Below, piece by piece: positions 19,712 through 45,146 of a stretch of DNA of 45,146 nt. The position numbers and the translations under genes are program-made. This DNA comes from Clostridia bacterium (lineage in GTDB: Bacteria; Bacillota; Clostridia; Christensenellales; Aristaeellaceae). The DNA is taken from contig JAFYOR010000102.1 in NCBI GenBank assembly GCA_017547805.1, positions 1-45,146 on the forward strand, given 5' to 3'. The number at the start of each line of letters is the position of its first letter. Positions within the stretch are counted from its first letter, which is position 1. The notes beneath the pieces were generated by a model. That model had not been told where the DNA came from and did not search any database. It was given only the letters and a program-made list of their open reading frames with translations.

Positions 19712-19740
19712 TTGTTTCTTGCCTTTTCAAGGCATCCTGC
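19712..19740 (-). promoter_or_regulatory. Promoter of the acyltransferase/acyl-CoA synthetase operon
   Basis: On the minus strand TTGAAA (19735-19740) and TATGAT (19712-19717, with TGG extension) are exactly 17 bp apart. A small palindrome CATAGCTATG (19689-19698) lies just downstream of the -10, near the transcription start, and could be an operator. Confidence 0.75.
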
Positions 19741-19854
19741 GCCGAATCGCAGCAATGCCCCAAAAAACAGCAGGAAAAGCGCACGCATCCGACCCATTCT
19801 GCCTCCCTTGATTCTTCTACATACGCATCTGACGGTTTTTGCGCGTTTTCTATG

Positions 19855-19895
19855 AGCAATCAAAAAGCCTTCTTTCGAAGGCTTTTTTGATTGCT
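19855..19895. terminator. Terminator downstream of araM
   Basis: AAAAAGCCTTC and GAAGGCTTTTTT form a stem around TTTC, extended by AGCAATC/GATTGCT. It ends the araB-araM transcript on the minus strand. Confidence 0.85.
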
Positions 19896-19909
19896 TATGT
19901 TCAGGCCGC

Positions 19910-28662: not shown

Positions 28663-28701
28663 TGACGGATGCGATTGAAGTTTGCGCATTTCTCATCCGG
28701 C

Positions 28702-28749
28702 AAAAAAGCAGACCCGCCGCCGGAATGCTCCGGACAAAACGGGTCTGCT
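28702..28749 (-). terminator. Terminator of the first SPFH module
   Basis: AGCAGACCCG (28707-28716) pairs with CGGGTCTGCT (28740-28749), followed on the minus strand by TTTTTT. A second small stem CCGGAATGCTCCGG sits in the loop; the same small stem recurs in the terminator at 39007-39030. Confidence 0.85.
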
Positions 28750-28790
28750 TGCTATGTCGATCAGCGGCTTCACCGCCGCATTCCGGCCTG

Positions 28791-30191
28791 TCAGCGGATG
28801 TCGCCCTCGTCAAAGGGGTCGCCGCATTCCGGGCAGAATCTCGGCGGATTCTTGGGATCGGCAGGCTTGAAGCCGCACTTATCACACTGATAAAGCGGCG
28901 CATCTGCCGGCTTCTTCGCACCGCACTCCGGGCAGAACTTGCCCTTGTTCACCGCGCCGCAGGCACAGGTCCAGCCCTCCTGCTCCGGCTTCTTCGCGCC
29001 GCATTCCGGGCAGAACTTACCGCTGACCGTCGCGCCGCAGGCGCACTTCCAGCCGGCTTGCGCTTCCGGCTTCTTCGCGCCGCACTCCGGGCAGAACTTG
29101 CCGCTGACCGTCGTGCCGCAGGCGCACTTCCAGCCGTTTTCCGCCGGCTGCGGCGCGCTCTGCATCTGCTGCATCTGCTGCTGGCCCATCTGGAAGAGCT
29201 GCGCCGCATTGACGCCGCTTCCGCCCTGCACCATGTTCATGCCCATGAAGCCTGTGAACGCGCCGGCGGTGTTTTTCGCCGCGTCCTGCATGGCCTGCGC
29301 CTGCGCGCCGACCATATGCGCCGCCGCCATATTCGCATTGCGGAAGACGGCATTGCGCTGCAGCTCCTTAATCATCGCCTCGTCTTCCTCGGACGCCTTG
29401 ACGGAATTGACGCCGAAAGAAACGACCTCCACGCCGCGAAGCTGCGCCCACTTGCCGGAAAGCACCTCATTGAGCGCCTCCGCCAGCTCCATCGTATGGC
29501 CCGGCAGCGCGCTGTATCGGATACCCATTGCAGAGATTCTGGCAAAGGCAGGCTGCAGCGCAGTCAGCAGCTCGCTCTTGAGCTGGCTGTCGATCTTGTC
29601 GCGCGTATAGTCGCCCTCGACATTACCGCAGACATTGGCATAGAAGAGAATCGGGTTGGTGATGCGATAGCTGTATTCGCCAAAGCAGCGGATGGACACA
29701 TCGATATCCAGACCGATATTCTGGTCCACCACGCGGAAAGGCACGGCGCTCGGCGTGCCATATTTGTTGCCCAGGATCTCCTTGGTATTGAAGTAATACA
29801 CGCGCTGCTCCCTGCCGGCCTTGCCGCCAAAGGCAAAGCGGTCAAACGCAGCCTTGAGCACATCCTTGATCTTGCCCATGCCAAACTCGCCGTACAGGAT
29901 CGTCGGCTCGCCGTTGGCATCAAACGTATATGCGCCCGGCTCCGCGCAGAAATCCACAACCTTGCCCTGATCGACGATCATCATGCACTGACCGTCGGCA
30001 ACAGCAATCACGGAGCCCTGAGAGATGACGTTTTCATCCTCCACCTTCCAGCCGCCGAAAACACCCTTCGTCTTCTTCAGCGCTCTGGTGGCCAGCACAT
30101 TTTCCGGCATGGCGTCGCAGTAGAAAAACTCCTTAAACTGGCTTTCCAGCGTTCCCGTGACGGCGCTCACCGCAGCAGAAATCAGTCCCAT
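28791..30191 (-). CDS. SPFH-domain protein with four C-terminal zinc ribbons, copy 1 (YdjI-like)
   Basis: The start follows GGAGG with 8-nt spacing. The 466-residue protein starts with a YdjI-type SPFH region (about 1-300), with QGSVIAVADGQCMMIVDQGKVVDF and FGEYSYRITNPILFYANV, then an Ala/Met/Gln-rich stretch (about 300-345). Four CxC/CxxC ribbons follow: two of WKCACG...KFCPECG, one WTCACG...KFCPECG and a last YQCDKCG...RFCPECG. In Bacillus subtilis YdjI is a membrane-associated scaffold recruited by YdjG and YdjH in an envelope-stress system with the PspA-like YdjF. No pspA gene is seen here. The membrane zinc-ribbon gene lies 34 bp upstream. A second copy is at 33231-34622 with about 80-90% identity by eye. 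Confidence 0.88.
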   Translation of the reverse strand: MGLISAAVSAVTGTLESQFKEFFYCDAMPENVLATRALKKTKGVFGGWKVEDENVISQGSVIAVADGQCMMIVDQGKVVDFCAEPGAYTFDANGEPTILYGEFGMGKIKDVLKAAFDRFAFGGKAGREQRVYYFNTKEILGNKYGTPSAVPFRVVDQNIGLDIDVSIRCFGEYSYRITNPILFYANVCGNVEGDYTRDKIDSQLKSELLTALQPAFARISAMGIRYSALPGHTMELAEALNEVLSGKWAQLRGVEVVSFGVNSVKASEEDEAMIKELQRNAVFRNANMAAAHMVGAQAQAMQDAAKNTAGAFTGFMGMNMVQGGSGVNAAQLFQMGQQQMQQMQSAPQPAENGWKCACGTTVSGKFCPECGAKKPEAQAGWKCACGATVSGKFCPECGAKKPEQEGWTCACGAVNKGKFCPECGAKKPADAPLYQCDKCGFKPADPKNPPRFCPECGDPFDEGDIR

Positions 30192-30225
30192 TATGTTGCC
30201 CTCCTATATCGTTGATTACCCTTTG

Positions 30226-31509
30226 TTATTTCCTGTTGTTCTGTTCAATTCTTCTGCGCGTCTGCGTGGTATGCAGGTAATGATCATGGCGCGCATACAG
30301 CTTGAAAGAATCCCTGATCACGTAATTGCCGGCGCCATGGACGCTCGCCGCCTGTTTAAGCTGACCGCGCAGCGCGCCGTAGACCACGAGCGCAGCCACC
30401 AGCGCAAGCACCGCAGCAATCATGACCATGCCGCCTTCAAGCGCGCCCATAAAGCCGAAGGCAGCGCAAGCCAGCGCAAACACCAGCGCAAATGTACCGC
30501 CGCCCCAAAGCCAGCTCTTCTTCACATCAGCCGGCACATCGCACGTGAGCTTGCCGGTCTGGCCGTTGATGGCAAAGGTGTACGTCACGCCCTCTTTCTC
30601 GGTGGTAATCAGCCACACGGGCATGAGCACGGGCGTTACCTTGCCCTCCTCCGTGTGGAAGCTCCTGCTGCGCGGCATAACAGCGGTATACCCCGAAACC
30701 GTGCTGCGCAGCGCCTGCTCCATGCTGGTTTCCACGCGCTGGCGGGCGCGTTCCTCACAGTCGGCGCTGTCCACATCCGCATGATCCGCCATTGCGCCGG
30801 CCAGCACAGCCGGAGCAAACGGCACCGCAGCGCTCATGTCATAGGGTTCCAGAGACTCGGTGATCTTATTGTCCAGCTTCACGCTGCCATCCACCGGGAT
30901 GCCTTCAAAGCCCATCATACCGGCGCGGCGAACGAGGTAGTGCTCGGTATACGTTACCTCCCATTCGCCTTCGCGGCGGGTATACTTTTTCTGCGCATCA
31001 TAGACGGCGCTGCCGCCCGCTGTGCAGTCAAACAGCCAATACGGCACGTAGAGCTTGCGCATCTCGGCGATGCGGTTGCGGGTATTCAGAAAAACATTGG
31101 GCATCAGCTTCTTGCCCTTGAAATAATCCTCAAAGAGCTTCTGCGCCTGTTCCTTGGTCACGGTGAAAGGAATCACCTTCTCCGGCTTGACGCCGCCTTC
31201 AATCCGCTCAGGCAGGATCGTCGGGCTGCCGCAGTACGGGCATTCCGTTGCCGTTGTCGTTTCCTCGGTCATCAGCTCCGCGCCGCAGCCCTGACAGATA
31301 TAGGCCTGCATCTGCGCCGTTTCACCCGCATCGAAGGTTTCGGTGGGCATATCAAAATGAATGCTTCCCGCCTCCTGCGATTCGCTCATCGCTTCCAGCG
31401 CATCCAGCTCATAGCTGTTGCCGCAGGAAGCACATTCCAGTTTTCCGCTCTGCGCGCCATAAGCGAGCGGCGCGCCGCAGCACGGGCATTGATATGTTAC
31501 CGTAGCCAT
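30226..31509 (-). CDS. Zinc-ribbon membrane protein, copy 1 (YdjG/YdjH-like)
   Basis: The start at 31509 follows AAGGGA. The 427-residue protein has an N-terminal ribbon (CPCCGAPL...CASCG, about 8-33) and a second (CQGCG...CPYCG, about 70-95) in the TFIIB style. A large soluble middle follows, including EMRKLYVPYWLFDC and VTPVLMPVWLITTEKEG. Two membrane helices occur at about 345-400 (TFALVFALACAAFGF and MIAAVLALVAALVVYG), then a basic tail. The layout fits the membrane partner of the SPFH protein, like YdjG/YdjH of Bacillus. It is the first gene of the module and is driven by the strong promoter at 31583-31611. The paralog at 35207-36493 is very similar throughout. Confidence 0.87.
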   Translation of the reverse strand: MATVTYQCPCCGAPLAYGAQSGKLECASCGNSYELDALEAMSESQEAGSIHFDMPTETFDAGETAQMQAYICQGCGAELMTEETTTATECPYCGSPTILPERIEGGVKPEKVIPFTVTKEQAQKLFEDYFKGKKLMPNVFLNTRNRIAEMRKLYVPYWLFDCTAGGSAVYDAQKKYTRREGEWEVTYTEHYLVRRAGMMGFEGIPVDGSVKLDNKITESLEPYDMSAAVPFAPAVLAGAMADHADVDSADCEERARQRVETSMEQALRSTVSGYTAVMPRSRSFHTEEGKVTPVLMPVWLITTEKEGVTYTFAINGQTGKLTCDVPADVKKSWLWGGGTFALVFALACAAFGFMGALEGGMVMIAAVLALVAALVVYGALRGQLKQAASVHGAGNYVIRDSFKLYARHDHYLHTTQTRRRIEQNNRK

Positions 31510-31582
31510 AGCATTCCCTTCTTTCGTGTAAGCTTCTTGAATATCCCTCTGCGCAGCATAGCGCAATCTATCTAACATATTC

Positions 31583-31611
31583 ATTATACCAAGTCAGCAG
31601 GATGCTGTAAA
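31583..31611 (-). promoter_or_regulatory. Strong promoter of the first zinc-ribbon/SPFH module
   Basis: On the minus strand TTTACA (31606-31611) and consensus TATAAT (31583-31588, with TGG extension) are 17 bp apart, about 75 bp before the start codon at 31509. Confidence 0.82.
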
Positions 31612-31718
31612 TAGCTATTAGGCCTGAACACCCTAACCGCAGCTTCATGCAGCGCCGCCTTCGCGTATTTTTCCGCGTACGCAGCCGATGTTTTCTGCGC
31701 AATTTCATATACATAAAA

Positions 31719-31762
31719 AGTAGACACATCATCGCAGAAATCCTGAAAATGATGTGTCTACT
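31719..31762. terminator. Bidirectional hairpin at the left border of the mobile-element debris
   Basis: AGTAGACACATCAT (31719-31732) pairs perfectly with ATGATGTGTCTACT (31749-31762) around a 16-nt loop, with A/T runs on both sides (AAAA before, CTTTTTT after). It shields the first module's promoter from minus-strand transcripts. Confidence 0.8.
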
Positions 31763-32054
31763 CTTTTTTCTAATTATTTAAGGCAAGATCGAAGAATCGA
31801 ACCTTAAACTCTGTCGGCAACAGCCAGTTATTCCAGCTATTGCTTACTTCGCCAGCACTTGGGAAACCGCAACGGCAACGGCGACGGTCATGCCGACCAT
31901 CGGGTTGTTGCCACTGACGGTCAGTCCCACATTTCGTATCTCAAAACATATCGCTTCACAGCATTTCATCGCAATACATGGTTTTTTCGCATATTGTACT
32001 CTTCCCCGTCCTCGAGAACTCCGGCCCTCCGTGGTCAATACGTGGTCAGCATAT
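31763..32054 (-). other. Stretch without a recognised gene; hydrophobic reading-frame tail
   Basis: A minus-strand frame ending at 31844 reads EIRNVGLTVSGNNPMVGM followed by an Ala/Val run and SQVLAK. It has no ribosome site or start of its own; upstream it is continuous only with out-of-frame integrase sequence. It may be the 3' end of a gene joined here by the element. A tRNA-like box (GAATCGAACC at 31794-31803) is present without a foldable tRNA. Confidence 0.3.
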
Positions 32055-32742
32055 TCAGGTGCCAATCTTGTGGTCATCCTCCTGATACATGGAATTCAGA
32101 ATCTCTACGGACTGCTTTCGCATCTCATCGCTCATGTACATATACCCGCCGCGTTGTCATCTCGCTCTTATGCCCCAAGCGCCGCTGAATCTCTTTACTG
32201 GAAACGCCGGCTTCTTCAAGTTCCGTTGCATGGGTGTGCCTGAGTGTATGGAAATCAAATGCCGGATACCCAAGTTCCTTATGAACCACACGCGAACAAT
32301 GCTGCATGACACGCGGTTGAATATATGACCCATCGCTCCTAACCGTAACCATCTGTATTTCCTCACCATTACCACTCGTACCGATATATCCGTCCGAGTC
32401 GCTATACAGATGAATGTACGCATCACCAAAGCCCATCCGGAACTGAAGTTGCCTCTCCCGCTTCAGGTAAGCCATCGTGTCCCTGTCCATGTCGATTTTG
32501 CGATAGGAATCATACTTGGGAGGAACAAACCGCCACTGCTGCCGCTCCTTGTACCATTGCACTTGTTTATTGACATCAATTTGCCCATTCTCAAAATCGA
32601 CATCATCCCAAAGAAAAGCAAATGATTCACCAATTCGCGTTCCTGCCCGGTATCCAAAGAGCAACAATGTATAACAGGAATGCCCATCTGGAAACCGCGC
32701 GAAAATCTCATTCACCACTTCTCTCGTCAACGGTATCGAGAA
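32055..32742 (-). pseudogene. Tyrosine recombinase/integrase, 5'-deleted and frameshifted
   Basis: The open part (32125-32730) encodes the catalytic domain of a phage/ICE-type integrase: Arg in YRAGTRIGESFAFLWDD, HTLRHTHATELEEAG, RRLGHKSEMTT and the region of the nucleophile Tyr in RRVYVH. Two lesions are visible. First, the N-terminal arm and core-binding domains (normally about 150-180 residues) are missing, because the gene meets XRE sequence at about 32730-32742. Second, right after YVH the frame is lost and ends in HER-stop, while the normal ending (MSDEMRKQSVEILNSMYQED) continues in another frame to a stop at 32055-32057. A 2-nt loss of CA in a CACATG context near 32135-32139 would explain it. 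Not functional. Confidence 0.85.
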
Positions 32743-32995
32743 CTATAAAGGAAATCCCAAATTGGAGGTTCTTTATCCTTTGATTCGTGCCCTTGATATT
32801 AATCCCACTTCCATATACTACTCGGAACTCTTTCAAGATTCTGACAGCCGATCCGAGCTGAACAGCATTCTTGCTCAATACAGTAACGACGAAATCGCCT
32901 CGTTGGTTCCTATCTGCAAAACAGTCATCTCCGTACTCCGCTCAACAGAATCCATTCCAATTAGTAAAAACCAAAACAAAGAGCCTGCTCCCTGA
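32723..32995 (+). pseudogene. C-terminal part of an XRE-family regulator, HTH domain deleted
   Basis: The readable frame starts near 32723 and gives NGIENYKGNPKLEVLYPLIR, then ALDINPTSIYYSELFQDSDS and an EIASLVPICKTVISVLRSTES ending. This is the last part of the HTH domain and the C-terminal half of XRE regulators found beside integrases in Clostridia. The start codon and the DNA-binding helices are absent. The TTG at 32762 after no clear ribosome site is not a credible start. It is head-to-head with the integrase fragment. Confidence 0.75.
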
Positions 32996-33022
32996 GTTTT
33001 TTTCTTAGGAAGCAGGCTCTGC
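32979..33022 (+). terminator. Terminator-like hairpin after the XRE fragment
   Basis: AGAGCCTGCT (32980-32989) pairs with AGCAGGCTCT (33011-33020); the loop contains a run of seven T. It overlaps the stop codon and lies just before the end of the convergent KTR remnant. Confidence 0.6.
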
Positions 33023-33024
33023 GT

Positions 33025-33206
33025 TTATACGTCTGGCTCTGTGCTTACGACCTTTTTCAGTTTTACTATACTAATAACGGTTTCTCTTTTGCATTTAGGA
33101 CAATGCAACGGAAATTCAGAAGTACCGTATCTTCATATACCTTGATACGGGTTCTGCCATTACAGATTGGGCAATTCACCCACAGTGTATTTTTCTGATC
33201 GTTCAC
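33025..33206 (-). pseudogene. Cysteine-rich KTR protein, frameshifted
   Basis: From a GTG at 33206 the minus strand reads VNDQKNTLWVNCPICNGRTR, then IKVYEDTVLLNF. After that the family sequence LHCPKCKRETVISIVKLKKV continues only in the next frame, to a TAA at 33025-33027. Loss of one T in a TTTCC context near 33110-33114 explains it. The two CPxC pairs and the KTR-like GRTR identify the Cys_rich_KTR family, small zinc-binding proteins common on Firmicutes conjugative elements. The annotation of a single frame would miss it. Confidence 0.75.
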
Positions 33207-33230
33207 CTTTTCACCAGTCTTTTCTATCAA

Positions 33231-34622
33231 TCACTGAATATCGTTTTCGTCAAAAACATCGCCGCATTCCGGACAGAACTTCGGCATCTTTGTGGGATCA
33301 GCAGGCTTCCAACCACACTTATCACACTGATACACCGGCGCACCCGCAGGCTTCTTCGCGCCGCACTCCGCGCAGAATTTGCCCTTGTTCACTGCACCAC
33401 ATGCACAAGTCCATCCATCTTCTGCCGGTTTCTTCGCACCGCATTCCGGGCAGAACTTGCCAGTCGCTGTCGCGCCGCAGGCACACTTCCAGCCAGCCTG
33501 AGGTTCAGGCTTCTTGCTGCCACACTCCGGACAGAACTTGCCGGTTGCCGTCGCGCCGCACGCGCACTTCCAGCCATTGGCGGCCGGCTGAGCAGGCTGC
33601 TGAGCCATCTGCTGCTGACCCATCTGGAACAGCTGTGCGGCATTGACGCCATTGCCGCCCTGCGCCATGTTCATGCCCATAAAGCCGGTAAATGCACCAG
33701 CCGTATTCTTTGCTGCATCCTGCATGGCCTGCGCCTGAGAACCAACCATATGCGCCGCCGCCATGTTCGCATTGCGGAAGACCGCATTGCGCTGCAGCTC
33801 CTTGATCATGGCCTCGTCCTCTTCGGACGCCTTGACAGAATTCACGCCGAAGGAGACGACCTCCACGCCGCGCAGATTCGCCCACTTGCTGGACAGAACT
33901 TCGTTGAGTGCCTCGGACAGTTCCATCGTGTGGCCAGGCAGTGCGCTGTAGCGGATGCCCATCTCGGAGATCTTGGCAAAGGCAGGCTGCAGCGCGGTCA
34001 GCAGTTCGCTCTTGAGCTGGCTGTCGATCTTATCGCGAGTGTAATCGCCCTCGACATTGCCGCAGACATTCGTATAGAACAGAATCGGGTTGGTGATGCG
34101 ATAGCTGTACTCGCCAAAGCAGCGGATGGACACATCGATATCCAGTCCGATATTGTTATCCACCACGCGGAAAGGCACAGCGCCCGGCGTGCCATACTTA
34201 TTGCCGATGATTTCCTTGGTGTTGAAATAGTATACGCGCTGATCCTTGCCCAGCTGACCGCCAAAGGAGAAGCGATCAAACGCTTCCTTGAGCAGTTCCT
34301 TGAGCTTGCCCACGCCAAACTCGCCGTAGAGAATCGTCGGCTGACCGTTAGCATCGAAAATATACTCGCCCGGCTCGGCGCAGAAATCGATGATCTTGCC
34401 CTGATCGACGATCATCATGCACTGTCCGTCGGCAACAGCGACAACAGAACCCTGAGAAATGACATTCTCATCAGTCACTTTAAAGCCAAGAACGCTCTTG
34501 GTTCTCTTCATCGCCTTGGTCGCCAGAACACTCTCCGGCATCGCATCGCAGTAGAAATACTCTTTAAACTGGCTTTCAATCGTACCCGTCACCGCATTAA
34601 CCGCAGCAGCAATCAGTCCCAT
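33231..34622 (-). CDS. SPFH-domain protein with four C-terminal zinc ribbons, copy 2 (YdjI-like)
   Basis: The 463-residue protein starts after GGAGG with 8-nt spacing and is colinear with copy 1 at 28791-30191. By eye about 80% of the first 100 residues are identical, and the central SPFH region (KIDSQLKSELLTALQPAFA and the VEVVSFGVNSVKASEEDE stretch) is nearly so. The four ribbons (WKCACG, WKCACG, WTCACG, YQCDKCG, each with a CxECG partner) are kept. Differences sit mostly in the Ala/Gln linker and around residues 40-50. It lies 24 bp behind the 186-residue secreted protein gene. There is no terminator between its stop and the mobile-element debris, unlike copy 1. Confidence 0.88.
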   Translation of the reverse strand: MGLIAAAVNAVTGTIESQFKEYFYCDAMPESVLATKAMKRTKSVLGFKVTDENVISQGSVVAVADGQCMMIVDQGKIIDFCAEPGEYIFDANGQPTILYGEFGVGKLKELLKEAFDRFSFGGQLGKDQRVYYFNTKEIIGNKYGTPGAVPFRVVDNNIGLDIDVSIRCFGEYSYRITNPILFYTNVCGNVEGDYTRDKIDSQLKSELLTALQPAFAKISEMGIRYSALPGHTMELSEALNEVLSSKWANLRGVEVVSFGVNSVKASEEDEAMIKELQRNAVFRNANMAAAHMVGSQAQAMQDAAKNTAGAFTGFMGMNMAQGGNGVNAAQLFQMGQQQMAQQPAQPAANGWKCACGATATGKFCPECGSKKPEPQAGWKCACGATATGKFCPECGAKKPAEDGWTCACGAVNKGKFCAECGAKKPAGAPVYQCDKCGWKPADPTKMPKFCPECGDVFDENDIQ

Positions 34623-34646
34623 GTGGTTATCCTCCTGTATCGTTCA

Positions 34647-35207
34647 TCAATAATCCGTAAAATCAATCACCCATCCGCCCTGCGCCTGCGTATTCATTTC
34701 GCCCATATAGAAATGGATGTACGGATTCCACTGCATCACGTTGCCCACGCTGTCCTCAACGCAAACCCGGCAATCAAAAGGCTCCGCAGCCTCTTCAAAA
34801 TCCGACAGGTACGGATCTTCTTCCCACGGAGAAGTCACCGCATTGCAGCGCAGCAGAAACGGTTCTCCTGTTTCGCTGTAATATATGAGGCTTTCTTCAT
34901 CTTCGCCCATATACACAATTGAGACGCTCGCCTCAGCATCCAGCGGAAGAATCAGATACAGCTCTTTTCCTCCCCGGATATCCACGACGCGCTCATCCGG
35001 AACGCTTAAAGCGATTCCCCGCCACGCATCGTCAAGACCAGTAATCACCGCATCCAGATGCCTGCGTTCCTCCAGCAGCGCCCAATCGCCGCCCATGCTG
35101 TCGGACACAAGGATAGCGGCGCAAATCGGAGAGGTCTCCTCCGCCATGCACAGGCAGGGCAGACACAGCAGCAGAGCACACAGCAGCAAACAAATCCTGT
35201 TTTTCAT
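34647..35207 (-). CDS. Small secreted protein of unknown function inside module 2
   Basis: The ATG at 35207 overlaps the stop of the zinc-ribbon gene by one base (TGATG), with AGGAG 9 nt upstream; an in-frame GTG one codon earlier is possible. The 186-residue protein has a signal peptide (MKNRICLLLCALLLCLPCLC, cleavage near CMAEE). The mature part is acidic, beta-rich and ends in HFYMGEMNTQAQGGWVIDFT. Two Cys (DCRVC) may form a disulfide. I do not recognise the family. Its place between the two module genes, absent from copy 1, suggests an extracytoplasmic sensor or cargo of the system. Confidence 0.75.
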   Translation of the reverse strand: MKNRICLLLCALLLCLPCLCMAEETSPICAAILVSDSMGGDWALLEERRHLDAVITGLDDAWRGIALSVPDERVVDIRGGKELYLILPLDAEASVSIVYMGEDEESLIYYSETGEPFLLRCNAVTSPWEEDPYLSDFEEAAEPFDCRVCVEDSVGNVMQWNPYIHFYMGEMNTQAQGGWVIDFTDY

Positions 35208-36493
35208 CACTTGCTCTCCTGTTTCTTCTCGATCTTCCTGCGCGTCGTGGTGGTGTGCAGGTAGATATCCCTGCTGGTGAAGAGTTCAAAGGAATTCTTG
35301 ACGATGTAATTGCCCGCGCCATGCACGATGCCCGCCTGCTTGAGCTGGCTGACAAGACCGCCGTAGACGATGAATGCCGCAATCAGCGCGATCACCGCCG
35401 CGCCAGCAAATGTGCCGCTCTGCAGGCTGCCAAAGAAATAGAACGCCGCACAGGCAAGCGCAAACACCAGCGCAAACGTGCCGCCGCCGTAGAGCCAGCT
35501 CTTCTTCGTATCCGCCGGGACGTCGCAGGTGAGCTTGCCGGTCTGGCCGTTGATGGCGAAGGTATAGGTCGCGCCTTCCTTTTCGGTGGTGATCAGCCAG
35601 ACGGGCATGAGCACCGGCGTGGCCTTGCCGTCCTCAGTATGGAAATGCTTATGGCGCGGCGTGACCGTAGCGTAGCCCTTGACCGTCTCGCGCAGCGCCT
35701 GCTCCAGGCTGTTTTCCACGCGCTGGCGGGCGCGCTCCTCACATGCGGCGCTCTCCACGTCCGCATGGTCCGCCAGAGCGCCGGCCAGCACCGCCGGGGT
35801 AAACGGCACGGCAGCGCTCAGGTCATAGGGCTCCAGGGATTCGGTAATCTTGTTATCCAGCTTTTCGCTGCCATCCACCGGGAGGTTTTCAAAGCCCATC
35901 ATACCGGAACGTACAACATGGTAGTGCTCCGTCTCGGTCACTTCCCAATCGCCTTCCGTATACTTGCGCGTCTTCTGCGCGTCGTAGGCGACGCTGCCGC
36001 CGGCCGTGCAGTCAAACAGCCAGTACGGCACATACAGCTTGCGCATCTCGGCGATGCGGTTGCGGGTATTGAGGAAGACATTGGGCAGCAGCGGCTTGCC
36101 CTTGAAATAGCCTTCAAACTGCTGCTGCGCCTGTTCCTTGGTCACCGTGAAAGGAACCACCTTCTCGGGCTTCACGCCGCCGTCGATGCGCTCGGGCAGG
36201 ATCGTCGGGCTGCCGCAATACGGGCACTCCGTGGCGGTCGTGGTTTCCTCGGTCATCAGTTCCGCACCGCAGCCCTGGCAGATATAGGTCTGCATCTGCG
36301 CCGCCTCGCCAGCGTTGAATGTTCCGGTGGGCATATCAAACTGGATGCCGTTCTTTTCACTGGATTCGTTCATCGTATCCAGCGCGTCCAGCTCATAGCT
36401 GTTTCCGCAGGCCTTGCATTCCAACTTGCCGCTCTTTGCATCATACGCAAGCGGCGCGCCGCAGCTGGGACACTGATACGCAATGGTACTCAT
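35207..36493 (-). CDS. Zinc-ribbon membrane protein, copy 2 (YdjG/YdjH-like)
   Basis: The start at 36493 follows GAAGGA. The 428-residue protein is colinear with copy 1 (30226-31509): ribbons CPSCGAPL...CKACG and CQGCG...CPYCG, the shared EMRKLYVPYWLFDCTAGGS block, PVLMPVWLITTEKEG, and two membrane helices near 345-400 (TFALVFALACAAFYFFG and AAVIALIAAFIVYGG). The tail is basic (RRKIEKKQESK). Divergence is highest in the ELDAL... linker after ribbon 1 and in the second helix. The stop is coupled to the small secreted protein gene. Confidence 0.87.
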   Translation of the reverse strand: MSTIAYQCPSCGAPLAYDAKSGKLECKACGNSYELDALDTMNESSEKNGIQFDMPTGTFNAGEAAQMQTYICQGCGAELMTEETTTATECPYCGSPTILPERIDGGVKPEKVVPFTVTKEQAQQQFEGYFKGKPLLPNVFLNTRNRIAEMRKLYVPYWLFDCTAGGSVAYDAQKTRKYTEGDWEVTETEHYHVVRSGMMGFENLPVDGSEKLDNKITESLEPYDLSAAVPFTPAVLAGALADHADVESAACEERARQRVENSLEQALRETVKGYATVTPRHKHFHTEDGKATPVLMPVWLITTEKEGATYTFAINGQTGKLTCDVPADTKKSWLYGGGTFALVFALACAAFYFFGSLQSGTFAGAAVIALIAAFIVYGGLVSQLKQAGIVHGAGNYIVKNSFELFTSRDIYLHTTTTRRKIEKKQESK

Positions 36494-36538
36494 ATTCAAT
36501 CCTTCTTTCGCTTCAATATGATGGCTATCGGAAATGTC

Positions 36539-36568
36539 GCTGGCGCACGACAATTGCCATGCGCCAGC
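36539..36568 (-). terminator. GC hairpin between the Cys-rich lipoprotein and module 2
   Basis: GCTGGCGCA (36539-36547) pairs with TGCGCCAGC (36560-36568) just after the lipoprotein stop. On the minus strand it is followed by GACATTTCC rather than a T-run, so it may only attenuate and let module 2 be read from upstream. Confidence 0.5.
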
Positions 36569-36578
36569 CATTCAAGTT

Positions 36579-38948
36579 TTACTCGGTATAGGCGTTCCAG
36601 CTGATGGACTCGACACACTTGCTGTCATCGAACACAACTTCGATATAGGAATCGAAGCCCTCGTCATTGACGCACATGGAATACAGCTGAATCGGGCGCT
36701 TATAGATATACGTGCCGCCAGACTTGGAGGCGCAGTACAGGCCGTTCTTCTTCATGGAGTTTTCGACGGTCTTGAGCTTATCGCCCACCCCGATGCCATA
36801 GAGCGCATAACCCTCGCCGGTCAGCTCGATATACTCGACAAAGTCGCTCGCGCCACCGATGGTCACCGCATCATCGGAAGCTTCGCCGCTCATTTCCATT
36901 TCAAGGCCGTAGTGATCCGCCGCCTCGGAAATGAAAGAGAAGCAGATGTCGCTGAGATCCTCGCTGTCCACGCCGACATGGCGGTTATCCGAGTAGGACA
37001 TATCGCCGATCACCGCGCGGGCATAGTCAGACGTGATCCAGACGTTCTTATTCTTATAGCGCACCTTATACCAGACATTGCCGGTGCTGTCCACTTCCGC
37101 CTCGATGAGATTGCCAAGGTTGGTGTTCTTCTTCGCCACCTGACCGGCGGTGCCGTTGTCCTTGCCGGGGCCGGTACGCAGGTTGACCTTGCCGGAGGTG
37201 GAAATGATCGTGATCTGTCCATCCTCCATCATGCTGTAAAACGCCGGAGTCGCGGTGGGCTTCGGGGTCTTGGTGGGCTTGGGCGTCGCGGTCGGCTTCG
37301 GGGTCTTCGTCGGCTTGGGCGTTGCCGTCGGCTTCACCTTCTTGGGGATGGACTGCGTTTCCTTCTGACCGCAGGTCTTGCAGGTGTGCTCCTGCGTGCC
37401 CTCGGCCGTCTCGGTCGCTTCCTTGGTCACCGTCCACTCGCCGAAGCTATGGCCGATCGCCTTGATGGTGGTCTTCTTTACGTCGCCGCAGGTCTTACAG
37501 GTTTCCTGGGATTCGCCCGCCGTGGTGCAGGTCGCCGCCTTGGTCACCTTGGCTGCATCGTAGTTATGGCCGGTCGCCTTGATGGTCGTCTTCTTCACAT
37601 CGCCGCAGGTCTTACAGGTCTGCTGGGATTCGCCCGCCGCAGTGCAGGTCGCCGCCTTGGTTACAACAGCGCTGCCATAGCTATGGCCCAGCGCGTCAAG
37701 GGCACGACTGCCGTCGGTCTTGCCGCAGACCGTGCACACAGAAGACGCTTCGCCCTTTTCCGTGCAGGTCGGCTGCTTGGTAACCTGATCATCCTTCCAC
37801 TTGTGACCAGTAGCAGGGATTTTCTGCTCCTTCTTATCGCCGCACTGCGTACACGCTGCAACCTTCAGGCCATCCTTGTCGCAGGAAGCATTGACCGCCA
37901 CGATCCACTCCCCATATGTACATTTGCCGGTAGCAGGAATCGTTTCTATCTTTTCCTTAGAACAGGAGGCGCACTTATATGATTTGTAGCCGTCAGCGGC
38001 GCAGGTAGCCGGCTCGGAATACGTCTGCTGCCAGTTATGATCCGCAGGAGAACCTTCCTTTTCCGTCTTCTTTTCATTGCACGTGCTGCACTGATAGGTT
38101 ACCGTCTTGGGAGAATCGCAGGTCGCGCCAAGCGCGGAAACCGCTTCCCACTTATGCCCCGTAGCCGGGACGCCTTCATTCTTCTGATCGCCGCAGACCG
38201 AACAGATGTAATACGCCGTGCCGCCCGCCACGCATTCTACATCGTCGCGGTTGGTATGCGTGTGTTCCCACTTGTGCTCGCCGGTCGCCGGGCGTACTTC
38301 GGTCTTCTGTTCGCCACAGTTGCTGCACTCCAGATAATACGCGCCCTTCTCCGCACAGGTGGGTGCCAGTACGCCTACCTGCACAAAGTTGTGATTACCG
38401 ATAGCAGGAATGGTCTCGCTCTTTTGCGAACCGCAGCCCAGTCTTGAACAGGTATAGACTTTCTTTCCGTCTTTTTCGCAGGTCGCATCGACAGTACTCG
38501 TCACCTTGTAATCATGGCCCAGCTTGGGGATGGTCTGGTACTGAGAATCGCCGCAGCGGGTGCAGTCATACCATTCCTTGCCATCTTTTTCACACGTTGC
38601 ATTGCTGGTTTGAGCATACTGATAATCGTGTCCCAGCTTATCCTTCGCCTTTTCTTTCCATTCCTTATGGCACCTCGTACACTCCAGAACATAATAACCC
38701 GGCTCAGTACACGTAGCCTCATCAAAACCAATCTGCGCTGCAGCATGACCAAGCTTATCTTTTGCCTTTTCTCTCCATGTGCCACCGCAATCGGCGCACT
38801 TCAGAACAAAATATCCCGGTTCCGTACACGTGGCTTCGTCAAAGCCGATCTGATATTCATTCGGCTGCACACACTGGCACCCGGCAAGCGCACATACCGG
38901 CAGCGCCGCCAGCATAACAAGCAGCACAAAACCTAAAAACCGTTTCAT
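36579..38948 (-). CDS. Lipoprotein with 13 Cys-rich repeats and an SH3 domain
   Basis: The start follows GAGGAG. The 789-residue protein has a lipoprotein signal peptide ending in a canonical lipobox (ALAGC, Cys24). Residues about 30-515 hold 13 repeats of about 33-38 residues with pattern ATC-x5-8-G-x6-C-x2-CG...IPATGH; each offers three Cys and usually one His. Repeats 11 and 12 are nearly identical (TCKTCGDVKKTTIKA). Repeat 13 has lost its first Cys. A Pro/Thr/Lys linker follows (TPKPTKTPKPTA), then a bacterial SH3 domain (VNLRTGPGKDNGTAGQVAKK, about 575-640) and a 140-residue C-terminal domain with no recognised family. It is outward-facing; SH3 suggests cell-wall binding. The repeats may bind metal or form disulfides. 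Confidence 0.85.
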   Translation of the reverse strand: MKRFLGFVLLVMLAALPVCALAGCQCVQPNEYQIGFDEATCTEPGYFVLKCADCGGTWREKAKDKLGHAAAQIGFDEATCTEPGYYVLECTRCHKEWKEKAKDKLGHDYQYAQTSNATCEKDGKEWYDCTRCGDSQYQTIPKLGHDYKVTSTVDATCEKDGKKVYTCSRLGCGSQKSETIPAIGNHNFVQVGVLAPTCAEKGAYYLECSNCGEQKTEVRPATGEHKWEHTHTNRDDVECVAGGTAYYICSVCGDQKNEGVPATGHKWEAVSALGATCDSPKTVTYQCSTCNEKKTEKEGSPADHNWQQTYSEPATCAADGYKSYKCASCSKEKIETIPATGKCTYGEWIVAVNASCDKDGLKVAACTQCGDKKEQKIPATGHKWKDDQVTKQPTCTEKGEASSVCTVCGKTDGSRALDALGHSYGSAVVTKAATCTAAGESQQTCKTCGDVKKTTIKATGHNYDAAKVTKAATCTTAGESQETCKTCGDVKKTTIKAIGHSFGEWTVTKEATETAEGTQEHTCKTCGQKETQSIPKKVKPTATPKPTKTPKPTATPKPTKTPKPTATPAFYSMMEDGQITIISTSGKVNLRTGPGKDNGTAGQVAKKNTNLGNLIEAEVDSTGNVWYKVRYKNKNVWITSDYARAVIGDMSYSDNRHVGVDSEDLSDICFSFISEAADHYGLEMEMSGEASDDAVTIGGASDFVEYIELTGEGYALYGIGVGDKLKTVENSMKKNGLYCASKSGGTYIYKRPIQLYSMCVNDEGFDSYIEVVFDDSKCVESISWNAYTE

Positions 38949-38999
38949 ACCCTCATTCTCCTCTATGTTTCTTTTCGCCTTTGCGGCGATTGTTTCAAA

Positions 39000-39030
39000 A
39001 GAATTCGCCTGCCGGAATGCTCCGGCAGGC
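39000..39030 (-). terminator. Terminator of the secreted-protein operon
   Basis: GCCTGCCGGA (39007-39016) pairs perfectly with TCCGGCAGGC (39021-39030) around ATGC. On the minus strand a short T-run follows a few bases later (GAATTCTTTT). Confidence 0.7.
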
Positions 39031-39045
39031 TATGATTGCATTTCA

Positions 39046-42000
39046 TTACTCAGCCAGCACAAAATGCAGCGTCATCGTGCCGTAATAGTCCATGTCAAAG
39101 CCGGCGTCGGTCAGCACGGCGTTGAACATGGAGCCGTAGTAGTTGATGGCAAACGCATCCACGGAGGTGAGTCCGACGGCAACCTTCTGCAGGCCCCACG
39201 GGAGGCTGGGCACCGTCATGCCCGAAAGGGTGAAGTCCGCAAGGCCGTTGGCATGGAAGGTAACCGCATACTCCGCGCCGAGCATGGAGGCATCCATCGT
39301 CTGGCCGAAGGAGGTGTAGGTCTTGGCGACAAACTTCTTCTCCAGTCGCTCTTCCATGGTGGTAAAGCCAGCGCTCTGCGCCTGAGCCGTTGCACCCGGG
39401 AGATTGGAGACGCCCGGGGCAAGGGTCATCGCCTGACCGGCGGTCGGCTCCCAAGTCGCATTCGGATCCTTGCTGAAAACGAAGTAGCCGCCCAGCTGGC
39501 TGCCATACTGCAGGCAGCCGTCGGAGAGCAGGGTCAGCGGCATGCCTTCTTCGCCGAAGTAGACATTGCCGTCCTCCTCGTACCAATTGCCGTTCTTGTC
39601 GATCGGGAACCCGACGGAAGCGGTGCCGTCCTCGTTCACGGTGAACTTGGAGTCAAGGCCGAGCACCGTCTTGGGATGGCCGCTCATGCCGCCGAAGTTC
39701 ATATAGACCATGTGCCATTCGCCGAGGTAACCCTGCAGGTGCTCCGGCACGCCGGATTCGCCCTCTTCCATCGCGGCCAGCGCTTCAAGGAGCGCCAGCA
39801 GCATTTCATCCTCGCTCATTTCCTCGCCATCAGCGCTGCCTTCGCCACGGACGAAGACCATGCCCTGAGATTCCATGACCAGCTGGCCTTCGCCATTGAT
39901 ATAGAGCTCGTCGCCCATGACATTCGCCTTGCCGTCAATCACCATCCAGACGCCCGGGTCAACCTCGCCGAACATTTCCATACCGCAGGTTCCATCCGGG
40001 TTCAGGGTCAGCGTCATTTGCATGCCGCCCATGTCCGCAGTCCACGCGCCGAAGTACGGCTCGCCCTCGGAACCGATGGGCATCGCTTCAGGCAGTTCAT
40101 AGCCTGCGTCGCTGCCGTAGTAAGCGGAAAGGTCGCCGTCCCGGCTGAAGAGCTGGAAGATACCCTCACCGTTGGTAATGGTCAGGATGATGCCGTCAAA
40201 GGTGATCGGGCAGCTCTCCCAGATATCGCTGGTGACCATCGCCTGACCGTCGACCACATTCCAAGTCATTTCGCGCGCATAGCCATCGTCGTAAGTGAGA
40301 GTCAGCGCGCCTTCGTTGGTCAGCGTAAGCTTCGTGCCGATATCGTCGTACCAGTCGCCCAGCAGTTCATCAGCGCCTTCGATGAGCTTCTTTTCAACAT
40401 ACGGCACGAGGATAATCTCATCGCCGCCCATGCTCATCTTGATGTTGCCATTGCCGTCGAAGGTGATCTTCGCCAGTTCGCTCATCGCCGGGCCGACATA
40501 AGCGGTGCCGTAATCCGCGTACCACTGCAGCGCGTAGGGTTCTTCGCCCATTTCTGCGGAGGTCGCCGTGCCGTCGTCATTCAGGGTCAGGGTCATCGCG
40601 CCGTCCGCCGTCTGCCATGCGCCGATGAAGTACTTCGCGTTGTCGAGGTTAAACTCCGGCCACGGCTTTTCCGGAACGGCGGGGGCAGTATAGAGCTTGC
40701 CCTCCTGCTCGCAGATGGCAGCGGCATAGAAGAAATCGATCACCAGACGGCCATTCTCGTCGATATTGGCCATGGCATAAGTTGCTGCCGCGTCGGGCTT
40801 TCCGTTTTCGGCGGCAGCCAGGAAGGCACTGCCCGCCTCCACATACCAGCCAGAGGGCATCTCCACGCCATCCAGAATGACAACAGCGGTGCCGTCCGGG
40901 TTTAGAGTCGCATTCACACTGGGATACGCATCGGTGAAGTCACCCATGACGTCCTTGCCGGCTACAGCATGCCAGCTGCCGAAGAACGGCATGCCCGCCA
41001 TCACGTCGAGCGCCGGGAAGGGCATTTCCATCGCCGTAGGCTCGCTCACGACACACTTGGCAAAGGCGTCCGCCATGTAGGTCACAAAGCCCTCATAGAG
41101 CTCCTTCGGGCAGCCGTCCGCCAGCGTCAGGGTCGCATCATACTTGTTGTCCTTGAATGCATCTGCGCCGAATTCAGGCATCTCCATGCCGGTGTAGACG
41201 ATCTTGGTCAGTCGGTTACCAGAGAAACCCTTCTCACCAACCGACTCCACACTCGGACCAAAGGTCACTTCAACCATGCCGGCACGCTCAAAGCCAGACG
41301 CAGCGATGGTTTTCAGCGTCGTCGGCAGGGTCACAAACTCAAGGTCGCAATTGTAGAACGCCTTGCTGCCGATGCTTTCAAGGCCCTCTGCCCAGCCAAC
41401 AGCAGCCAGCTTATTGGTGTTGAACGCGCTGTCGCCGATGGTTTTCAGCGTCGTGGGCAGAGACACATAGGTCATCAGGCTGCAGCCATGGAACGCCTGC
41501 TTTTCAATCGTCTCCACGCCCTCAGGAATGGTCACGTAGCACAGGCTATAGCGCTGCAGGAAGGCCTGCTTGCCAATGGCCTTGACCGGCGTGCCGCCGA
41601 TGGTCGCGGGGATCTCAATACGACCGGCCGTACCATTGTAAGCGGTAATGGTGCCGGTGGAAGCGTCGAAATCAAAGTCGCTTTCAGGCGCAGTCCAATC
41701 GATCTGAACCGCATTCTTGCCGCTGGGCTGGATGCGGGCAAGCACGTCCTCGCGCTCCGCAAAAGCCGCCTTGTACGCATCAATCTGGTCGTCCGGAACA
41801 TAGATCACGCACTCGGCAGCCAGATCAGCGAAGGTGGTGTAGTAAGAGTCCACCGGGAAGATGGGGCACACGCCCTCAAAGGTGATGCTCTTGATGTTGC
41901 TGAGATTGAAGATCGCACCGTCGATCACCGATACGGACGGCGGGATCACCAGGCTCTCAATCGGCATGCCGCTGAGGCTTCCATCCTTGATGATCAGCAG

Positions 42001-42315
42001 GTCACGCGGCAGCGTAAGAGAGGCCAGATAGGGCGAATTGTCCAGCGTATTGCTCTCAAAGAATCGAATCGTATCCGGGAAGATCATCTCGGTCACGTCA
42101 AAGGTGGACTTAAAGGCCATGTAATCAAGGCCCACTACGCTTGTACCTTCCACCTCCGCCGGGATTGTCACCATGCCGGCAACGTTCGTGCCGCTGGCCA
42201 GCTTGATCAGGCCGGTAGACGCTTTAATCGTCCACGGAAGTTCATCTGCCCCGGCGCTCACACACAGCGCCAGCACAAGCAGCATGCTCAGGATCAGAGT
42301 CAAAGTCTTTTTCAT
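39046..42315 (-). CDS. Large secreted protein: BspA-type leucine-rich repeats plus lipocalin-like beta repeats
   Basis: The 1089-residue protein has a signal peptide (MKKTLTLILSMLLVLALCVS, cleavage near AGADE). Residues about 40-400 are BspA/LRR_5-type repeats with IPEGVETIEKQAFHGCS and LPTTLKTIGDSAF units, interrupted at about 190-220. Residues about 425-1089 hold some six beta repeats that each open with G-x-W: FGSWHAVAG, IGAWQTADG, LGDWYDDIG, FGAWTADMG, LGEWHMVYM, and a diverged last one; each contains an LTLNxDGT-like strand. The same unit makes up the neighbouring 225-residue protein. There is no LPXTG or membrane anchor. Such proteins are surface or secreted binding proteins; no catalytic motif is seen. 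It is the last gene of the operon starting at 44291. Confidence 0.82.
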   Translation of the reverse strand: MKKTLTLILSMLLVLALCVSAGADELPWTIKASTGLIKLASGTNVAGMVTIPAEVEGTSVVGLDYMAFKSTFDVTEMIFPDTIRFFESNTLDNSPYLASLTLPRDLLIIKDGSLSGMPIESLVIPPSVSVIDGAIFNLSNIKSITFEGVCPIFPVDSYYTTFADLAAECVIYVPDDQIDAYKAAFAEREDVLARIQPSGKNAVQIDWTAPESDFDFDASTGTITAYNGTAGRIEIPATIGGTPVKAIGKQAFLQRYSLCYVTIPEGVETIEKQAFHGCSLMTYVSLPTTLKTIGDSAFNTNKLAAVGWAEGLESIGSKAFYNCDLEFVTLPTTLKTIAASGFERAGMVEVTFGPSVESVGEKGFSGNRLTKIVYTGMEMPEFGADAFKDNKYDATLTLADGCPKELYEGFVTYMADAFAKCVVSEPTAMEMPFPALDVMAGMPFFGSWHAVAGKDVMGDFTDAYPSVNATLNPDGTAVVILDGVEMPSGWYVEAGSAFLAAAENGKPDAAATYAMANIDENGRLVIDFFYAAAICEQEGKLYTAPAVPEKPWPEFNLDNAKYFIGAWQTADGAMTLTLNDDGTATSAEMGEEPYALQWYADYGTAYVGPAMSELAKITFDGNGNIKMSMGGDEIILVPYVEKKLIEGADELLGDWYDDIGTKLTLTNEGALTLTYDDGYAREMTWNVVDGQAMVTSDIWESCPITFDGIILTITNGEGIFQLFSRDGDLSAYYGSDAGYELPEAMPIGSEGEPYFGAWTADMGGMQMTLTLNPDGTCGMEMFGEVDPGVWMVIDGKANVMGDELYINGEGQLVMESQGMVFVRGEGSADGEEMSEDEMLLALLEALAAMEEGESGVPEHLQGYLGEWHMVYMNFGGMSGHPKTVLGLDSKFTVNEDGTASVGFPIDKNGNWYEEDGNVYFGEEGMPLTLLSDGCLQYGSQLGGYFVFSKDPNATWEPTAGQAMTLAPGVSNLPGATAQAQSAGFTTMEERLEKKFVAKTYTSFGQTMDASMLGAEYAVTFHANGLADFTLSGMTVPSLPWGLQKVAVGLTSVDAFAINYYGSMFNAVLTDAGFDMDYYGTMTLHFVLAE

Positions 42316-42845: not shown

Positions 42846-43523
42846 TTAGTCAAGGATCATCGGCTGTTCAAGGTAGAAGGTCGCCGGCGCGGAGAACAGC
42901 TCCGTGGTGATGGCGATCATGCCATCCTCAAGGGCGTTCATGGTAAAGACAGAAGCGCTGCTGTATTCATCCTTCGCCGGAACAGTCATGGTCAGCGTAC
43001 CATTATCCAGAACAGCCTCGCCTTCGAAGGTTTCCGCCTCGATGAAGTTAATGGTCACAGAGACGTTGTTTCCAGTGATAAGCGCATCCATGTACACGCC
43101 TGCCGCGTCCACCGGCAGCAGCGCGCCGAAGCAATCGACGTTCATCGCCGTCCAGATGCCTTCAAAATCAGCCAGCGCAGCCTCCGTGCGCACCGCAGCC
43201 GGAGCCCATGCCTCCATGGCCGTGCGGGTGAAGGTCATTTCGCCCGCCATATCCAGCACCTGTGCAGCAGCGTCGTAGGTGAATACGCTCTCGGTTTCGG
43301 TGCCCTTGTCCACGATCAGGTTCGTGCCGTCCAGTTCCCATGTGCCCGGGGCAGAATCGCCGCCAGCTTCCAGCACATAGGTGTTGTCAGCATTCACGGT
43401 CATCTTCATCACCATGCCGTACACTTCGGCATACCAATCACCGGTCACATCCTCGGCATACGCGCCGACAGCCAGCGTCGCCAGCAGGGTAAGGGTAACG
43501 ATTGCAGTCAGAATCTTCTTCAT
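42846..43523 (-). CDS. Secreted lipocalin-like beta-repeat protein
   Basis: The start at 43523 is 8 nt after GGAGG. The 225-residue protein has a signal peptide (MKKILTAIVTLTLLATLAVG, cleavage after AYA). Two beta units follow: VTGDWYAEVYGMVMKMTVNA with GTWELDGTNLIV, and FEGIWTAMNVDCFG with LDNGTLTMTVPAKDE. They match the G-x-W units of the LRR protein two genes downstream, so the pair may have arisen from a common block. No membrane anchor is seen. Function is unknown; ligand or polymer binding is likely. Confidence 0.75.
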   Translation of the reverse strand: MKKILTAIVTLTLLATLAVGAYAEDVTGDWYAEVYGMVMKMTVNADNTYVLEAGGDSAPGTWELDGTNLIVDKGTETESVFTYDAAAQVLDMAGEMTFTRTAMEAWAPAAVRTEAALADFEGIWTAMNVDCFGALLPVDAAGVYMDALITGNNVSVTINFIEAETFEGEAVLDNGTLTMTVPAKDEYSSASVFTMNALEDGMIAITTELFSAPATFYLEQPMILD

Positions 43524-43562
43524 TGTTTTTTCCTCCATATTTCCATTTATTGATTACACAAT

Positions 43563-44464: not shown

Positions 44465-45146
44465 TTATGCTTCACGCTTTTTTCGGGAAACCAACGCAAG
44501 CCCCGTCATGCTGGTCAGCGCAAGGCCCATCCAGAGCAGAATGTCGCTCTCGTCACCGGTCTTCGGCATGTTGATGTCAGAAGGAATCTTCTGACTGGGA
44601 TCAATCAGCGTAAACGTGTTGGTGATGATGATTTCCAGCTCCGGCATGGTTCTGGTCTGCGGGTTTACGCTTCCACCCGGCTCAAACGGCACAGTGTCGA
44701 TCTCAAAGCTACCGACGAAAATGCCATCCTTTCCGTCATCCGGCGCCTTATTGCCCGGCTTGACGCCCTTGAGCTCCACATCAACCGTCACATCATAGCC
44801 GTCGACGCTTTCAAAGCCCTTCTCGATGATCCCGAACGCTCCCGGCACTCTGACTGGCTTGGTCTTATTGCCATTCAGCAGATCGTTCTTGCTAAAGTTC
44901 ACCTTGCCCGACATACCGCCGTTGAGGCTGTCGTAGATTTCGAAGGTGAACACAGTGCCGTCCGGCAAATCCTTCACCTCGACGCCCTCAATCTTCTTGG
45001 TGATATGAACGATAACGTCGTCCGGGATGACAGGATCAGTCGGGGTGGCCGTGGGCTCGGCGGTCGGGGTGACCGTGGGCTCGGCGGTCGGAGTGACCGT
45101 GGGCTCGGCGGTCGGAGTGGCCGTGGGCTCGGCGGTCGGAGTGGCC
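44465..45146 (-). CDS. C-terminal part of a sortase-anchored surface protein (partial)
   Basis: The frame is open from the window edge to the stop, giving 226 residues of the C-terminus. It begins with a stalk of TAEPT(A/V)TP octapeptides (about 35 residues), then a domain of about 130 residues with HITKKIEGVEVKDLPDGTVF, TFEIYDSLNGG and IIITNTFTL, which resembles the Cna-B/pilin-like ITxxV...F-F-L...ITN domains of Gram-positive surface proteins. It ends with a cell-wall sorting signal: NMPKTGDESD, a hydrophobic helix and RKKREA. MPKTG replaces the classic LPxTG. A GTG at 44977 is not the start, since coding continues upstream. Confidence 0.85.
   Translation of the reverse strand, partial: ATPTAEPTATPTAEPTVTPTAEPTVTPTAEPTATPTDPVIPDDVIVHITKKIEGVEVKDLPDGTVFTFEIYDSLNGGMSGKVNFSKNDLLNGNKTKPVRVPGAFGIIEKGFESVDGYDVTVDVELKGVKPGNKAPDDGKDGIFVGSFEIDTVPFEPGGSVNPQTRTMPELEIIITNTFTLIDPSQKIPSDINMPKTGDESDILLWMGLALTSMTGLALVSRKKREA
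45039..45146. repeat. 24-bp tandem repeat coding for TAEPT(A/V)TP
   Basis: Units at 45039, 45063, 45087 and 45111 plus a half unit to the window edge, differing only by GGGG/GGAG and GGCC/GACC. Each codes eight residues of the surface-protein stalk. Such repeats vary in number by slippage. Confidence 0.9.

Follow-up and report, generated by a model that had tools for sequence, protein, structure and literature searches.

Two YdjG/YdjI-like SPFH membrane modules on either side of a dead mobile element in a Clostridia genome

The stretch analyzed here, called the window, is the 45,146-nucleotide contig JAFYOR010000102.1 of a Clostridia bacterium of the family Aristaeellaceae (assembly GCA_017547805.1). 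It carries two gene sets resembling ydjG and ydjI of Bacillus subtilis, each with a gene for a zinc-ribbon (ZR) membrane protein followed by one for an SPFH protein on the minus strand, and the remnant of a mobile element lies between them. The sets are referred to as module 1 (M1: ZR1, SPFH1) and module 2 (M2: ZR2, SPFH2, with the gene sec for an exported protein between them); G000 is the own genome, other G numbers are relatives, and L numbers are loci read. We consider it probable that these are two paralogous YdjG/YdjI-like modules of old date which stand side by side and provide an anchored SPFH scaffold, and that the element was not the cause of their duplication. An earlier note, made from the letters of the sequence, had described two ZR-SPFH pairs in the same order and orientation, forming a membrane module of the YdjG/YdjI kind, and had read them as a segmental duplication around the element. 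Comparison by blastn confirms the pairs, and the kind of module is supported as well. The duplication also stands; its tie to the element is not supported, as the homology stops at the gene ends and no integrase was matched at the module loci read in relatives.

Divergence and layout of the two modules

The SPFH copies align at 28807-30216 and 33247-34647 with 82.8% DNA identity, and the ZR copies at 30231-31526 and 35217-36510 with 79.0% (blastn, E = 0 for both). At the protein level, 397 of 463 residues are shared by the SPFH pair (86%) and 330 of 427 by the ZR pair (77%), so the earlier estimate of 80-90% by eye holds for SPFH and was a little generous for ZR. The homology comprises the two genes with 25 bases upstream of SPFH and 17 bases upstream of ZR, and none was found beyond these limits when the window was compared with itself by blastn. 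Fourfold-degenerate sites differ between M1 and M2 at 70 of 187 positions in SPFH and 62 of 173 in ZR (0.36-0.37), and between either own copy and those in other species of the genus the difference is 0.25-0.56. Because the divergence of M1 and M2 falls inside this between-species range, the copies are not recent. Among themselves, G004, G012, and G013 are closer (0.10-0.27 at SPFH and at the module-2-type ZR). Faster evolution of one copy was considered: rate tests with distant outgroups show no difference between M1 and M2 (SPFH 25 v 27 and 28 v 20; ZR 20 v 30 and 22 v 35). SPFH1 seems to be faster when near relatives are used (42 v 15 and 38 v 18), which can also mean that SPFH2 is the nearer kin of the copies in these relatives.

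Both SPFH proteins match the Pfam model Band_7_1 (65 bits for SPFH1 and 68 bits for SPFH2, cut-off 24) and carry CxC/CxxC zinc-ribbon-like motifs at the C-terminal end, and neither has a hydrophobic segment. ZR1 and ZR2 each have four CxxC motifs, arranged in two pairs, in the N-terminal part and two hydrophobic segments in the C-terminal part. In the profile scan, the curated zinc-ribbon cut-offs were reached by neither ZR protein and the model DZR stayed below its cut-off for SPFH; the Pfam scan gave no match to the TPM domain among the five module proteins. The stop codon of ZR2 overlaps the start of sec (TGATG) and a gap of 24 bases separates sec from SPFH2, and for this reason module 2 reads as one operon.

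Modules in other genomes of the genus

A ZR match was found in 7 of the 29 genomes of the genus, the own genome included. Strong SPFH matches are confined to the same 7 genomes; in a further 9 the matches are weak (best E 6.8e-29) and mostly fall on the zinc ribbons. Modules bearing sec occur in G000, G004, G011, G012, and G013, and sec is present in all four loci at the position of module 2 (the window, G004, G011, and G012). The secreted protein gene that had been regarded as an extra of module 2 does lie between ZR2 and SPFH2, yet it is not peculiar to that copy. The module-2-type loci of G004, G011, and G012 adjoin homologues of the window gene 36579-38948, and those of G004 and G012 also have homologues of 39046-42315 and 42846-43538; next to the sec module of G013, no neighbor homologous to the surface-protein genes of the window was seen. 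Modules without sec were found in G011, G012, G014, and G015, and the stretches read around them contain none of the other window genes. The integrase query had no match in 10 module loci of six relatives, although in several cases the contig breaks off inside the module or shortly past it. The two modules of G012 are on different contigs, with ZR copies that are 0.39 apart at fourfold sites (vs 0.36 in the window) and no integrase match, and this largely speaks against a duplication linked to the element; both contigs end inside SPFH, however, and the far side of both copies is only partly seen.

The module-2-type copy of G011 (L047, G011:C146 1063-2441) consists of the start and scraps of ZR, an SPFH gene with a frame break and a deletion, and an open sec. 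The earlier note had suggested that one copy is perhaps specialized for another envelope signal; this copy, however, looks decayed beside another intact module, which speaks rather for redundancy in that genome, an assembly fault being the alternative. At L054 of G012, an open reading frame (ORF) at 2111-2983, weakly like TMEM43 and below the cut-off, lies between ZR and the surface-protein gene; it was not seen in the window. In 38 of 57 named SPFH loci, a ZR gene of the same orientation lies at most 1.7 kb from SPFH (6 upstream, 32 downstream), and it was not found at the other 19, several of which are cut by contig ends. Proteins with DUF4428 directly adjoin SPFH in distant Clostridia (L131 7415-8356 and L138 7408-8127).

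The dead element and the surroundings of module 1

The claim that a dead mobile element lies between the copies was borne out by the integrase piece (Table 1) in the gap 31510-33230, where the G+C content falls to 0.39-0.50. The remnant extends over about 31700-33182. The stretch 31842-32733 has 89% DNA identity to a stretch of G011 with an integrase of 408 amino acids. The order at L110 of G005 is GGGtGRT 3' end, integrase gene (int), helix-turn-helix ORF, sigma-like ORF, XRE, hairpin, and Cys_rich_KTR, and the window keeps this order minus the part from the N-terminal half of int to the N-terminal part of XRE; the XRE piece abuts the integrase piece, probably through an internal deletion. 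L110 5841-9552 itself is a compact integrase element, and an integrase with the GGGtGRT 3' end recurs in G011 and G013. In all, the GGGtGRT 3' end adjoins the integrase in G000, G011, G005, and G013. Since the element stands beside GGGtGRT 3' ends in relatives too, it is less likely to have caused the duplication than to be the mark of a chromosomal junction or to have been inserted later.

A homologue of the hairpin at 31715-31766 lies about 65 nucleotides 3' of an intact GGGtGRT gene in L119, and another follows the GGGtGRT 3' end in L107. The own genome has a further GGGtGRT piece (amino acids 1-196) at the edge of contig C46, so that here the gene is divided between two contigs. Self-comparison of the window showed the element at no second site, and no second copy was found in the own genome among the 12 of 34 candidates that were scored. 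The 1.7-kb remnant has no further ORF of note, such as a conjugation gene, but the remainder of the element has been lost. Among phage records, the integrase piece has matches at less than 60% identity only (734 records).

Module 1 is followed by a thioesterase gene with close homologues (87-90%) in six relatives. In G004, G005, and G011, the thioesterase lies near homologues of the window genes 17041-21253; the stretch read there contains no module, and a module-2 locus, if the relative has one, is on a different contig. In G015, the gene and a GGGtGRT 3' end are about 4 kb apart, and an integrase piece lies in the interval.

Origin of the duplication

We hypothesize that the window is a junction, at which the thioesterase neighborhood, module 1, and the GGGtGRT 3' end would have been joined to the module-2 locus at the dead element. 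An explanation by a local tandem duplication of the three-gene module in this lineage, with sec lost from copy 1 and the element inserted later, we regard as unlikely. It would fit the adjacency and the same order of the modules, and the SPFH trees join M1 and M2 (support 88/89 for protein and 84/86 for DNA), although a further SPFH tree leaves this grouping unresolved; the trees omit the SPFH fragments of G004 and G012, except for the C-terminal part of G004 in the unresolved SPFH tree. The best ZR trees, however, place M2 with the module-2 copies of relatives (87/88 for protein and 82/92 for DNA), the fourfold divergence is within the between-species range, the flanks are without homology, and module 1 lies beside the GGGtGRT 3' end and its hairpin with the thioesterase neighborhood beyond, which the relatives read have at a different place than the module-2 locus. 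A chimeric contig with its join at the element, so that the modules are not neighbors in the cell, seems more doubtful still. The genome is in 113 contigs and the neighborhoods of the two modules were in no case seen together in the relatives read, which would agree with a chimera, but with no second copy of the element found among the 12 of 34 candidates scored in the own genome there is no obvious repeat for false joining. By far the least probable is a segmental duplication caused by the element or carried with it, for which the position of the element between the copies speaks. This candidate was rejected on the high divergence of M1 and M2, the end of homology at the gene ends, the lack of an integrase in what was read around the modules of six relatives, and the presence of the element without a module match in G005, and the element is also not repeated in the window.

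Several observations weigh against two old modules joined at a junction. The SPFH trees just given do so, and a ZR clade of M1 and M2 is not rejected (p 0.063 for DNA and 0.066 for protein), so that a duplication in this lineage only keeps some of its probability. The divergence of M1 and M2 is also no larger than that of many species pairs. The putative link between GGGtGRT and the thioesterase comes from one genome, G015: near the thioesterase, GGGtGRT had no match in the loci read of G004, G005, G011, G012, and G013, and where GGGtGRT was read in G011, G013, G026, and G022, neither a module nor the thioesterase was seen. Moreover, the genus is represented by fragmented genomes, with 40 to 590 contigs and a completeness of 75-99%.

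Other groupings were also considered. The candidate that M1 is the orthologue of the relatives' sec-less modules gave a mixed result and was not retained: rejected were ZR M1 with G012_B (p 0.001), ZR M1 with both G011_B and G012_B (p 0.018 and 0.023), and SPFH M1 with G011_B (p 0.004 and 0.021), and ZR M1 with G011_B alone was not rejected (p 0.32 and 0.058). Likewise not rejected were ZR M1 grouped with the relatives' copies of module 2 (p 0.064), SPFH M2 with G013_A (p 0.105 and 0.125), and SPFH M2 with G013_A and G011_B (p 0.179 and 0.196). The starts of the two SPFH genes of G012 (L053 and L054; bases 1-219) have seven differences in the first 78 bases and none in the next 141, after which both contigs end, and the ZR genes of this genome differ at 65 of 168 fourfold sites. 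The chance of at most one difference in 31 fourfold sites is about 5e-6 at the ZR rate of G012 and about 7e-4 at 0.27. The identical stretch from base 79 is thus likely a conversion tract; both contigs come from one incomplete assembly, and strain mixing is an alternative cause. No comparable tract stands out between the SPFH copies of G000. Conversion in G012 makes the gene trees a weaker tool for dating.

The exported protein beside SPFH

The sec protein had no Pfam or NCBIfam match at E 0.001, and at E 1 there was one meaningless NCBIfam row. Among solved structures, only the zinc-ribbon parts of the module proteins were matched, and for sec there was none below E 0.4. With the first sec profile, weak relatives (E 0.0012) came up in Ructibacterium gallinarum and Acetivibrio sp. 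MSJd-27, in both cases with SPFH as the next gene downstream; the two are 99% alike and reach 90% in hhalign over 44 columns. A profile with the Ructibacterium-like members matched in 17 of 391 genomes of the class, with SPFH directly downstream in 8 of the 16 non-own genomes; without the two Ructibacterium-like ones, this is 6 of 14. The second profile was built from four members of the genus and nine from outside it (seven beside SPFH and two not), the nine being taken from these 16 matches, one via the near-identical named copy L142. Not used were L188 as a near-duplicate, L191 because it lies at a contig end, and L197 and L199-L202 as weak matches.

With the second profile, matches were obtained in 26 of the 391 genomes, and 13 of the 25 non-own ones are strong (E <1e-20). 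An SPFH gene is directly downstream of the sec relative in 10 of these 13, which belong to six families; in two of the remaining genomes, the visible downstream stretches of 1.0 and 1.5 kb lack SPFH, and in the third the contig ends. Most of the 13 genomes had entered the profile, so the independent part of this count is smaller. G441 and G388 were strong and new with the second profile and both have SPFH downstream, the copy of G388 being only partly open. No SPFH was present in the stretch seen of the 12 genomes with weaker matches only, and these may therefore be other proteins. No ZR gene turned up in the 10 sec-SPFH genomes, whose loci are short. Many distant sec members have an LFGC motif (read by eye), which we take to be lipobox-like.

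The recurrent partnership of sec and SPFH in Clostridia is a new point, and what sec does we infer from sequence. The exported partner may sense or adjust the outer side of the membrane. Tentatively, and with less confidence than in the age of the modules, we propose sec as the outer partner of YdjI-type SPFH proteins of Clostridia in a PspA-independent membrane-stress device, which would consist of an extracytoplasmic sensor, an optional ZR anchor, and the SPFH scaffold in the cytoplasm. Two versions per genome would be possible, one of them without a sensor, with gene conversion keeping the SPFH copies alike in one relative. A recurrent exported partner without a family name offers a handle on the role of the scaffold, and the two copies with and without sec are a natural comparison.

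Features of the window and side searches

The features of the modules and of the element are collected in Table 1. The earlier note had also given module 1 its own strong promoter and terminator. Both sites are there, but as consensus or folding matches of a sort common in the window, where 16 promoter-like sites were observed vs 6.3 expected from shuffles. The stable hairpin at 36494-36578 is a possible processing or attenuation site. The zinc-ribbon coding part of SPFH1 contains repeats of an 81-base unit (2.9 copies, 28907-29136), and the contig ends in an array of 24-base units (4.5 copies, 45039-45146). Just upstream of module 2 (36579-42315) are genes for a cysteine-rich repeat protein that matches no Pfam model and for a surface protein of the BspA type with LRR_5; at L142, an LRR_5 protein with SLH domains is likewise located upstream of sec-SPFH.

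Rfam and tRNA scans of the window gave nothing. A reading as a defense system was discarded, as PADLOC returned only weak matches over the ZR zinc ribbons (E 1e-4 to 2e-3). Carriage by viruses or plasmids was considered and not retained: one partial locus was found on a 4.2-kb IMG/VR contig, and seven plasmid records matched, all at less than 60% identity and two with at least 80% cover.

Table 1. Positions of module and element features in the window.
Feature	Position	Strand	Details
Terminator-like hairpin with U run, 3' of module 1	28692..28790	-	folding: -45.9 kcal/mol, z -3.18
SPFH1	28791..30191	-	Band_7_1 and C-terminal zinc ribbons, no hydrophobic segment
ZR1	30226..31509	-	two N-terminal zinc-ribbon-like CxxC pairs, soluble part, hydrophobic segments 339-357 and 362-380
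Promoter-like site of module 1	31583..31611	-	TTTACA-17-TATAAT with TG, 11/12; consensus match only
Terminator-like hairpin	31715..31766	-	z -6.6
3' end of GGGtGRT gene, attachment-site-like junction	31844..31912	-	PF14057 in relatives
C-terminal half of tyrosine integrase	32125..32730	-	PF00589 E 4e-20; 201 amino acids (full L109 relative 408)
C-terminal piece of XRE-type regulator	32734..32995	+	41% to L110 ORF; full form has HTH_3
Terminator-like hairpin of the element	32974..33026		z -5.8
Frame-broken Cys_rich_KTR gene remnant	33027..33182	-	PF14205, read through; open homologue in L110
SPFH2	33231..34622	-	Band_7_1 and C-terminal zinc ribbons
sec, exported protein	34647..35207	-	signal-peptide-like segment 5-23; no significant Pfam/NCBIfam match
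ZR2	35207..36493	-	two zinc-ribbon-like CxxC pairs, soluble part, two hydrophobic segments
Hairpin lacking a U run, in the gap from upstream gene to ZR2	36494..36578	-	-29.3 kcal/mol, z -3.0

Comparison with known systems

The order of int, helix-turn-helix ORF, sigma-like ORF, XRE, and Cys_rich_KTR at L110 may correspond to that of Tn916-like integrative elements, although the xis-like ORF is below the HTH_17 cut-off. We take the order int-xis-sigma-XRE-KTR to be the mark of such elements. By comparison with these elements, the window has only the C-terminal half of int, the C-terminal end of XRE, and the broken KTR gene left, in this order, beside the GGGtGRT 3' end.

The earlier note had also remarked that PspA, the usual partner, is missing, and indeed there was no match to PF04012 in the own genome, which is 83% complete. 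ZR and PspA were counted in two samples of 250 genomes of the family drawn alike. A ZR-like gene was present in 160 of 250 (E up to 1e-20, distant paralogues included), and PspA exceeded the cut-off in none of 250, with five weak matches; the control search for PspA gave a match in 9 of 14 named genomes, B. subtilis among them. The frequency of ZR beside the lack of PspA suggests that the scaffold does something else in this family.

In B. subtilis, YdjI is a soluble SPFH protein which interacts with PspA and whose membrane foci need YdjG and YdjH, and YdjG/H/I anchor PspA (PMC8581546). YdjG is described in two further sources as having zinc ribbons and a membrane segment (PMC9239133, PMC11237479), the domain layout of YdjG and YdjI being that of PMC11237479. 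By this published layout, YdjI and the SPFH proteins of the window both have a Band-7 domain and a C-terminal zinc finger and no membrane helix, and YdjG and the ZR proteins both have two zinc ribbons and a membrane segment. Among the titles and abstracts searched, none described a secreted partner of YdjI-type SPFH proteins. By its sequence features, the module is a PspA-free variant of the YdjG/YdjI type. The ZR protein would anchor the SPFH scaffold at the inner face of the membrane without PspA, as YdjG together with YdjH does for YdjI. The pspA-ydjGHI operon includes PspA, whereas the own genome has no match to it, and where that operon has the TPM-domain protein YdjH, module 2 has an exported protein of another family; TPM proteins adjoin ZR in the distant loci L136 and L145.

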